Source of the DNA: Pseudomonadota bacterium
GTDB taxonomy: Bacteria; Pseudomonadota; Gammaproteobacteria; Xanthomonadales; Xanthomonadaceae
Direction of reading: 5' to 3'
NCBI GenBank assembly: GCA_018241125.1
Contig: JAFEEL010000012.1
Location: forward strand, 1 to 42,975
DNA length: 42,975 nt
Shown here piece after piece: positions 10,183 to 39,724 of the stretch. Positions within the stretch are counted from its first letter, which is position 1; every line of letters starts with the position of its first letter. A program made the position numbers and the translations under genes. The notes below the pieces were generated by a model. It was not told the DNA's origin and did no database searches. It saw only the letters and a list, made by a program, of their open reading frames with translations.

Positions 10183-11397
10183 GTGAGCCGACCCGGATTC
10201 CTTGCGCTCGAAGACGGCAGCGTGTTCGAGGGCCTCGCCGTGGGCGCCGACGGCCACAGCGTCGGCGAGGTGGTGTTCAACACCGCCATGACCGGGTATC
10301 AGGAAATCCTGACCGACCCGTCCTACGCGCGGCAACTGGTCACCCTGACCTATCCGCACATCGGCAACACCGGTTGCACCGATGCGGACGACGAAGCGTC
10401 GCGGGTGTGGGCGGCTGGATTGATCGTGCGTGACGTGCCGCGACGGGCCAGCAACTGGCGCAGCCAGACGCCGTTGCCCGAATGGCTGGCGGCGCGCGGC
10501 GTGGTGGCGCTGGCAGGAATCGACACGCGCAAGCTCACGCGCCTGCTGCGCGATGGCGGCGCGCAGAACGGCTGTCTGGTCGGCGGCGATGCCATCGACC
10601 GCGAACATGCGATCGAACTGGCGCGCAAGTTCCCCGGACTGGACGGCATGGATCTGGCGAAGCAAGTCAGCACGAAGCAGAGCTTTGCCTGGACCGAGGG
10701 CTCGCTGGATCTGGATCGCGGCGTGTTCGCGCAAGTGGGCTCGCCGGAGCTGCCGGAAAAATTCCATGTGGTGGCCTACGACTTCGGCGTCAAGCGCAAC
10801 ATCCTGCGCCTGCTTGCCGACCGCGGCTGCCGCCTCACGGTGGTGCCGGCGCAAACGCCGGCCGCCGATGTGCTCGCGCTCAAGCCCGACGGCGTGTTCT
10901 TGTCCAACGGCCCGGGCGATCCTGCTGCGTGCGAATACGCCATCGAAGCTACGCGCACGTTCCTTGATTCGCGCATTCCGTTGTTCGGCATCTGCCTCGG
11001 CCATCAATTGATGGGGCTGGCGCTCGGCGCGAAGACGTTGAAGATGAAGTTCGGCCATCACGGCGGCAATCATCCGGTAAAGGATCTGGATTCCAATCGA
11101 GTGCTGATCACCGCGCAGAACCACGGTTTCGCGGTCGATCCGGCGAGCCTGCCCGGCAACACGCGCCCGACCCACGTCTCGCTGTTCGACGGCAGCTTGC
11201 AGGGCTTCGAACTCATCGACCGCCCCGCGTTTTGTTTTCAGGGCCATCCCGAAGCGAGCCCGGGGCCGCACGATATCGGCGGGTTGTTTGATCGGTTTGT
11301 GGCGATGATGGGGAGCTCGGGACTCGGGACTCGGGACTCGGGACTCGGAAGTGCAAGTTCCAGCGATCGGGCGACGATCGCGTGGGTGCCCCGATGA
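10183..11397 (+). CDS. carA: Carbamoyl-phosphate synthase small (glutaminase) subunit
   Basis: This 404-residue subunit releases ammonia from glutamine and passes it to CarB for carbamoyl phosphate, feeding arginine and pyrimidine synthesis. It starts with GTG (10183) seven bases after a GAGG. The N-terminal domain has [12 protein letters not shown] and the [12 protein letters not shown] motif. The class I glutaminase domain has the nucleophile C271 (FGICLGHQL) and the pair H355/E357 (GHPEASPGP). The body is conserved through residue 378 (FDRFVAMM). The last 26 residues ([12 protein letters not shown]…) are encoded by a heptamer repeat and cassette DNA, not by native carA, whose family members end about there. 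The stop TGA overlaps the ATG of the inserted gene (ATGA, 11394-11397). Confidence 0.97.
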
Positions 11398-11790
11398 ACG
11401 CGTCCCATTTTCGCGAACTGGAAGTTTGGCAGTTGGCGATGTCGTTGACCAAGTCCGTGTATGGCCTGACTGCGAGCATGCCGCGGGAGGAGCGCTATGG
11501 CCTGTCTTCACAACTCCAGCGTGCTGCGGTATCGGTGCCATCCAACGTCGCAGAAGGAAATGCACGGGCATCAGCCAGGGACTACGCACGCTTTGTCTCG
11601 ATGGCGCTGGGTTCGTGTGCCGAGTTGCAAACGCAACTTTTGCTTGCGCGAGACCTTGGGTTGGGAGCGGCGGATGCTTGCGACGATGCGCTCGATCTGT
11701 GCGACAGAGTTGGGAAAATGTTGCTGCGACTACACCAAGCGTTGTCACGTCGCCTGACTTCCGAGTCCCGAGTCCCGAGTCCCGAGTCCC
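11319..11790. mobile_element. Four-helix-bundle cassette with 33-bp perfect inverted repeats
   Basis: The left end (11319-11351) is four GGGACTC heptamers plus GGAAG. The right end (11758-11790) is CTTCC plus four GAGTCCC heptamers, the exact reverse complement. The 406 bp between contain the body of one gene, for a four-helix-bundle protein. The whole lies between carA and carB, which are normally adjacent, and replaces the natural end of carA. I infer a small repeat-bounded cassette moved by an activity encoded elsewhere. No transposase motif or target-site duplication is evident. Confidence 0.7.
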
Positions 11791-11821
11791 GTGTTTCGGA
11801 AGAATCCGAGGAGTACCGGTA

Positions 11822-11822
<1 letters not shown>
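11394..11822 (+). CDS. Four-helix bundle protein (S23/IVP family) inserted in the car operon
   Basis: The product has 142 residues and the signature of the four-helix bundle family first seen in 23S rRNA intervening sequences and related to the Avd protein of diversity-generating retroelements. Markers seen: [20 protein letters not shown] at the start, the [16 protein letters not shown] turn, [20 protein letters not shown] and the last helix [20 protein letters not shown]. Family members form pentameric basic barrels and some bind nucleic acid; no enzyme activity is known. The C-terminal 22 residues ([12 protein letters not shown]…) come from the right heptamer repeat. The ATG overlaps the carA stop and the TAA stop overlaps the carB ATG (TAATG 11820-11824). 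A GTG at 11382 is a less likely start. Confidence 0.85.
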
Positions 11823-15067
<3,245 letters not shown>

Positions 15068-39647: not shown

Positions 39648-39689
39648 GAACCCCGATGTATACACCTGTCGCGATGGTTTGAGTAGGGC

Positions 39690-39724
39690 GGGAGACGGGA
39701 GACGGGAGACGGGAGATGGGAGAC
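39690..39724. repeat. Five GGGAGAC heptamers upstream of the HNH gene
   Basis: Four exact units and one with GGGAGAT. The unit matches the short run at 10026-10046 (reverse complement) and resembles the GGGACTC units that bound the carA/carB cassette. It lies in the 326-bp gap 39648-39973 between the HNH and Rhs genes, which contains no gene I can support. Confidence 0.9.

Follow-up and report, generated by a model that had tools for sequence, protein, structure and literature searches.

The window, by which we mean the whole stretch of 42,975 nucleotides that was analysed, carries a single small gene inserted between carA and carB, and all features of this insert lie on the forward strand. 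The carA gene (10183..11397), assigned by NCBIfam models, is followed by an IVP gene of the PF05635/TIGR02436 type encoding an Avd-like four-helix bundle (11394..11822), assigned by profile matches, and by carB (11822..15067), assigned from the open reading frame list and NCBIfam models. An inverted-repeat search delimited a left arm of GGGACTC heptamers (11318..11352) and a right arm of GAGTCCC units (11757..11791), of which the left is an inverted copy; the arms are 35 nt each, 100% complementary and spaced 404 nt apart. The original prediction of perfect inverted repeats made of GGGACTC heptamers was therefore correct in all but their length, which had been given as 33 bp. The sequence GGGACTCGGGACTC, with up to two mismatches, was found eight times in the window, in every case inside or edging the two arms, against 0.44 occurrences expected, and none of 100 shuffles reached eight. 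The IVP reading frame starts with an ATG at 11394, crosses the right arm in its 3' part, and ends with a TAA at 11820-11822. According to the sequence and the open reading frame list, the stop of carA and the start of the IVP gene overlap in ATGA (11394-11397), and the stop of the IVP gene and the start of carB in TAATG (11820-11824), both as predicted. The predicted 26-residue tail of CarA was also observed: the protein has 404 residues and the two best NCBIfam CarA models stop at 376 and 378, leaving 26-28 additional C-terminal residues, part of which is encoded by the left arm. The third-position GC content is 0.63 in the IVP gene (11394-11756), 0.82 in carA and 0.87 in carB.

The product of the inserted gene matched PF05635 (23S_rRNA_IVP) with an E-value of 4.8e-36 and 123.6 bits, passing the curated cut-off of 33.8, and TIGR02436 (four helix bundle protein) with 2.3e-33 and 114.6 bits, passing the cut-off of 24, with a weaker match to the PHROG family "Avd protein of DGR" (5.4e-07). 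These matches agree with the S23/IVP-type gene related to Avd that had been proposed. The protein also matched PDB 2gsc (2e-47), and an excerpt of PMC4990558 describes the X. campestris homologue as a homopentameric toroid and the PF05635 "four helix bundle proteins" as a family without known function. Apart from one sub-threshold Beta-lactamase match, all profile matches were of the IVP/Avd type, and no transposase-family match was obtained in the PF05635-, TIGR02436- and PHROG-type profile searches. Neither this protein nor the GxxExxY protein of the relative G008, described below, matched the PADLOC anti-phage defence models at 0.01. Inspection by eye of the window junctions alone revealed no target duplication; the insertion is old and a duplication may have decayed. 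The sole Rfam match in the whole window was a tRNA. ARAGORN called a tRNA-Leu(caa) at 13730-13819, inside carB, and this call is doubtful because Rfam gave no confirmation.

The genome from which the window derives contains three IVP genes, each within inverted short repeats, whose words are GGGACTC, GGTGAGC (only 13 nt long) and GTGAATC. In this genome and 99 relatives, 66 IVP matches were spread over 44 of the 100 genomes, and all 66 were scored for matched inverted arms. For this, the 270 nt upstream were aligned locally with the reverse-complemented 360 nt downstream, and the best alignment was given one point per match, from which two points per mismatch and the gap costs were subtracted. 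Matched arms were found at a score of at least 15 in 57 of the 66 and at a score of at least 13 in 60. A second set came from the GTDB contig collection, where there were at least 585 relatives; the best 80 were taken, and their organism names represent many phyla. Ten of these loci were dropped for lying near contig ends, and 54 of the 70 usable ones had inverted arms at a score of at least 15. Arms at score 15 were thus missing from 9 of the 66 matches and from 16 of the 70 named loci. Only 1.3% of cross-locus arm pairs in the named set reached the same score, and direct instead of inverted repeats did so at 6 of the 70 loci. When the same geometry was slid along the loci, 1 of 310 placements scored at least 15, compared with 49 of the 64 gene-centred loci, that is, those whose match begins at base 2001. 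With both sets pooled, 116 of 136 cassettes scored at least 13 and 111 at least 15. Cassettes scoring at least 13 fit closely between their neighbors, with a median of 2 nt from the end of the upstream open reading frame to the arm and of 8 nt from the arm to the downstream start; all three genes were co-directional at 56 of 102 loci, a count obtained with a crude caller that misread some neighbors, including carB of the window. A plasmid search returned an IVP relative in 26 records, mostly cyanobacterial. These results show an element family defined by its architecture, a single gene between matched inverted tandem-repeat arms. A family of repeat-bounded single-gene cassettes without a transposase match had been suspected from the window, and it proved to be far wider than suspected.

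The arms are arrays of short units. Among arms of at least 18 nt, the best internal lag was 7 in 100 of 114 and 8 in another 8. In the arms of the IVP cassettes L051, L135, L164 and L293 the units were 8 nt rather than 7 nt long. Unit counts, taken from 100 cassettes in which arrays were called left and right, were four in 36 left and 44 right arrays and five in 26 left and 21 right arrays. The polarity is largely fixed, with more G than C in the upstream array of 85 of 95 cassettes whose arrays were called independently on each side. In 13 genomes holding at least two cassettes, the two arms of one cassette matched each other in 31 of 35 cases, compared with 2 of 76 for the left and right arms of different cassettes in the same genome; similarly, 84 of 95 own pairs of independently called arrays scored at least 12, against 4.6% of cross pairs. 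The arm words are private to each cassette and differ between cassettes of one genome. GGGACTC, the word of the arms in the window, is therefore ruled out as a family-wide end, since nearly every cassette has its own heptamer. Across 109 cassettes, the identity between arms was 0.92 in register and 0.67 when slid by 7 nt, and because the arms match in register they are inverted copies of each other, including their irregular units, and not two independent arrays of one word. We know of no transposon whose two ends agree within each copy while differing from one copy to another. Formation of a G-quadruplex was also considered as a general function of the arms and was rejected, because only 27 of 111 arms could form a four-tract one.

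The history of the gene was followed in a tree of 72 IVP sequences (the 66 matches and 6 named ones; 130 columns), in which many forks are unresolved. A branch (97) had all 18 residents of the accB-accC site on the same side, and of the 14 residents of carA-carB, 11 grouped in a clade (99). L110, L043 and L121 (Ramlibacter), the remaining three, lie outside this clade, so that the carB label requires four changes on the tree, which suggests that these three may have been inserted at carA-carB independently. The window copy has long resided at the carA-carB junction and is not a fresh insertion. The closest IVP pairs were almost all from the same site; five of 70 such pairs (68-75% identity) had no flank similarity, and among them were two IVP copies of the genome G037, with different words in their arms. 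No fresh insertion was seen among the IVP cassettes compared. From the differing sites in the gene tree and the rare related copies at different sites, we infer that cassettes may have moved, and it is in this form, without a fresh jump, that the mobile cassette of the original prediction stands. The prediction had named as evidence against mobility a gene stable at this place and without matching ends elsewhere; the first part is true of the carA-carB clade and the second is not. The IVP gene had a dN/dS of 0.05-0.21 in those 7 of ten pairs for which dS was computable, values made uncertain by several dS above 1, and a raw pN/pS of 0.12-0.32 in all ten pairs.

The arms were compared with orthologous arms at the same site. 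In these comparisons arrays were called independently on each side, and two of the 18 accC-site cassettes, in which no array was called, and L058, a carB-site cassette without arms, were left out. The similarity between a cassette's own left and right arms exceeded its mean similarity to the orthologous arms in 9 of 10 cassettes at the carB site and in 15 of 16 at the accC site. The median score of the left arm was 27.5 against its own right arm and 13 against the left arms of its orthologues at the carB site (10 cassettes), and 19 and 13, respectively, at the accC site (16 cassettes). At both sites, carA-carB and accB-accC, vertical inheritance of the gene predominates, under purifying selection, and the two arms of a cassette change in concert.

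The carA-carB junction was surveyed by reading 30 loci from 59 genomes with a carB match. Ten of the 30 junctions were short and gene-free, including those of the congeners G001 and G004, which are empty sites of the kind that the original prediction had proposed to look for in relatives. An IVP cassette was present at two junctions (G000 and its congener G003), other inserts at ten, and at seven loci no CarA motif was recognised by the script. The remaining junction, of the congener G002 (L064, about 1225-1510), contained a decayed insert bearing CGCAAAGA-type repeats in inverted order. A C-terminal signature was noticed in it by eye, and it was considered as a GxxExxY remnant; the PF13366 search made no such call. 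Inserts of about 560-580 nt were present at carA-carB in L074, L075 and L086. Since further relatives have other inserts there, this site seems to be permissive. In G008, an intact GxxExxY gene (TIGR04256, 1.5e-38) is located immediately upstream of carB. There were 36 PF13366 matches, 10 in 8 of 60 relatives and 26 in 18 of 143 genomes of the class, of which two were dropped for broken frames. Matched inverted arms at a score of at least 15 were present at 26 of the 34 usable loci, compared with 3 of 132 shifted controls and 4.5% of cross pairs, and the best periods at the 28 loci scoring at least 13 were 8 (11 loci), 9 (10), 10 (6) and 12 (1). From these arm counts and the G008 gene at carA-carB, it follows that two families of small genes, unrelated to each other, have the same architecture and in at least one case landed at the same site.

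Heptamer arrays are also found away from the cassettes. At least 20 matches to arrays of the GKGANNN type were present in 28 of 44 IVP-positive genomes versus 4 of 56 IVP-negative ones, and within the family in 22 of 30 versus 4 of 30, both being raw counts that ignore kinship. AGGGC arrays were found in 11 of 100 genomes and were abundant solely in G093 (829 matches), G081 (107) and G036 (75), all of which are IVP-positive; the cassette arms fit AGGGC in G093 and G036 and not in G081. Similarly, GGAACGAG was dispersed in G007 (15 matches), whose cassette arms contain no exact copy, and the attempt to forecast cassette arms from the dispersed arrays of a genome was therefore wrong for G081 and G007. 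In G040, GGAACGAG was found at the cassette only, so that arms do not need a genomic background of arrays. Copies of the cassette word as arrays elsewhere were found in G000 and G065; a dispersed match in G069 was the cassette itself and was not counted. In sampled stretches, period 7 was found in 27 of 36 arrays in G000, 18 of 24 in G065, where the stretches were partly selected near known arrays, and 8 of 8 in G093, and the number of period-7 arrays was 0 in G017, 0 in G040 and 1 in G013. Five of the 27 own-genome arrays had an inverted partner, two of the five being the arms of the window. At 39689-39723 the window also contains a lone array of five GGGAGAC units with no partner within 800 nt.

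Some of the dispersed arrays form hairpins without a gene. For short-loop GGGANNN hairpins in convergent order, 154 matches, overlapping registers included, were obtained from 20 of 60 genomes, and the divergent order gave two matches at one place, across an N. The convergent order is the polarity of the cassettes, and 17 of the 20 hairpin-bearing genomes were IVP-positive, compared with 30 of the 60 searched. The own genome has a ferredoxin-like gene (L184:3427-4242) that contains a GGGAGAC hairpin (L184:3627-3711) and keeps its reading frame through it; this gene has no heptamer run in the congeners G004 and G002 and a one-sided run in G001 and G003. Forty dispersed hairpins, hand-picked from the listed matches, gave the inner consensus GGGATTCG(C)AAGAGCG, which scored above the 95% null in 14 of 17 left and 7 of 15 right arms of accB-accC cassettes, 2 of 11 left and 1 of 9 right arms at carA-carB, and 11 of 24 left and 3 of 20 right arms of other cassettes. 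Common descent of the hairpins and the cassette, which this motif might suggest, is not proven, because the motif also resembles the starts of REP sequences; the same resemblance weakens a reading of the hairpins as MITEs. In G093 (L203:2380-2960), REP-like palindromes (GTAGGAGCCTGC...) are flanked by AGGGC arrays.

The reading that we prefer, to which we would give somewhat less than an even chance, is that this locus exemplifies a widespread single-gene element, a heptamer-armed IVP cassette, whose arms are copied at the DNA level, putatively with promotion by IVP. Copying of one arm into the other, either by template switching or by conversion between the inverted repeats, would keep the arms alike. 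The IVP protein, a pentameric ring by homology, might bind the single-stranded repeats of an arm, perhaps with one heptamer per subunit, and this putative binding would promote the copying from arm to arm and, on rare occasions, help arms or the entire unit to reach new sites. The cassette would thus act as a REP/RAYT pair does, but with no transposase domain in its own protein. The TRAP protein winds its RNA on a ring in which each subunit takes up one unit, and since the arms mostly have four or five units and the homologue is pentameric, we hypothesize a repeat wound on a ring in the same manner.

An alternative, which we consider unlikely, is that the cassette is to mRNA what the intervening sequence (IVS) is to 23S rRNA: the stem formed by the arms would be cut by RNase III in the polycistronic transcript, freeing or insulating the IVP segment with little harm to the host operon, and pairing in the RNA would keep the arms alike. 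The gene family, the size and the layout are those of the Coxiella IVS (PMC4990558, as far as its text was available), the cassettes fit tightly in operons, the arm polarity is fixed, and the RNA fold of the window includes a predicted 35-bp arm stem with a z of -6.8, none of 100 shuffles being as stable. However, differences between arms did not have an excess of G-U-compatible transitions (58 versus 74 incompatible, p 0.19), this alternative leaves the dispersed heptamer arrays without explanation, and a crude k-mer check revealed no IVP locus beside 23S rRNA among the loci collected. Selection on an RNA stem as the force that matches the arms was set aside because this wobble test gives it no support, and we infer that copying at the DNA level fits their likeness best; given the strong predicted stem, the arms may nevertheless have a part in RNA processing.

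Copying at the DNA level could also proceed without IVP, if the arrays arose by replication slippage and the pairs were perfected by template switching, as in quasi-palindrome correction, with IVP a bystander to passive repeats. Heptamer microsatellites are indeed known in Xanthomonas and Nostoc (excerpt of PMC4692102), and many own-genome arrays are unpaired, with an inverted partner in 5 of 27. We nevertheless regard this as quite unlikely, because the arms accompany the gene (the 49 of 64 versus 1 of 310 shifted given above), are present in a genome without such arrays (G040) and across many phyla, and the abundance of arrays follows the presence of IVP. It is also conceivable, and to us distinctly improbable, that the dispersed hairpins are REPs moved by RAYT and decorated with heptamer runs, the IVP arms being look-alikes. 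The inner motif resembles the REP starts of Pseudomonas and Stenotrophomonas (GTAGGAGC-like; PMC3686654, in part), and G093 has the REP-like palindromes between AGGGC arrays; however, the IVP arms of most other phyla are, by eye, without the inner motif or REP-like starts, and the REP definition in the available part of PMC3686654 does not include heptamer units.

It is possible, although in our view less likely than not, that bacteria widely carry a new minimal class of elements, formed by small genes of unrelated families (IVP and GxxExxY) in private, self-matching arms whose word is free and which are rewritten together, with the encoded protein taking part; the same process would seed the arrays and hairpins of Xanthomonas and Nostoc, and rRNA IVSs would be copies in rRNA genes. 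Self-matching, fast-changing arms provide a concrete handle on what PF05635 proteins may act on, and the tie between IVP and the arms provides a possible source of the heptamer arrays in genomes of the Xanthomonas type and suggests a general element of which the intervening sequences of rRNA are one special case. With a second, unrelated family (GxxExxY) of the same layout, the question becomes general and directly testable.

Several known systems resemble the cassette in part. Avd of diversity-generating retroelements has a related fold, a likeness that is also stated in an excerpt of PMC10053308, and matches the window IVP weakly (PHROG, 5.4e-07; NF033474, 0.001), at 19.3 bits against an Avd equivalog cut-off of 80. 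GxxExxY (TIGR04256/PF13366) shares the layout in an unrelated protein family, with units of 8-10 nt. DNA transposons and MITEs depend on a transposase, for which the cassette has no match. In Xanthomonas, GGGAATC arrays are abundant microsatellites, as are those of GGGGA(C/T)T in Nostoc, and 70 convergent inverted heptamer pairs have been counted in Xcc and 75 in Xac; these GGGNATC microsatellites resemble the cassette arms in the kind of unit and in having about four units per array, and are treated in the available part of the same source as stand-alone G-quadruplex repeats without a link to IVP (PMC4692102). A link between IVP and heptamer arms was absent from the accessible portions of PMC4692102, PMC4679880, PMC4990558, PMC8934634, PMC10053308, PMC10910872, PMC5524665 and PMC3686654, a coverage outside which lie preprints and most subscription journals.

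The closest parallels are the rRNA intervening sequences and the REP/RAYT system. The IVS of the 23S rRNA of Coxiella and Leptospira has the same protein family, a similar length and inverted-repeat ends around one gene, that of Coxiella being 428-444 nt long with a 28-bp stem, an S23p open reading frame and excision by RNase III (PMC4990558, in the part available). The window likewise has complementary 35-nt ends around a PF05635 open reading frame, but its cassette lies between carA and carB, outside rRNA, and unlike those of the rRNA IVS its arms are tandem heptamers whose word varies from copy to copy. By position the cassette is no rRNA IVS, yet the two are probably of one kind. Like the cassette, REP/RAYT consists of a single gene in inverted repeats that is mostly inherited vertically, with dispersed repeats that tend to accompany the gene, and its ends are a conserved tetranucleotide and a palindrome (excerpt of PMC3686654), whereas the cassette ends in tandem short words, its gene has no match to the RAYT (Y1-type) transposase, and the words of its arms and of the dispersed arrays agree only in part. 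The best reading of these comparisons is therefore a widespread type of element that is REP/RAYT-like in outline, akin to the rRNA IVS, and formally neither.
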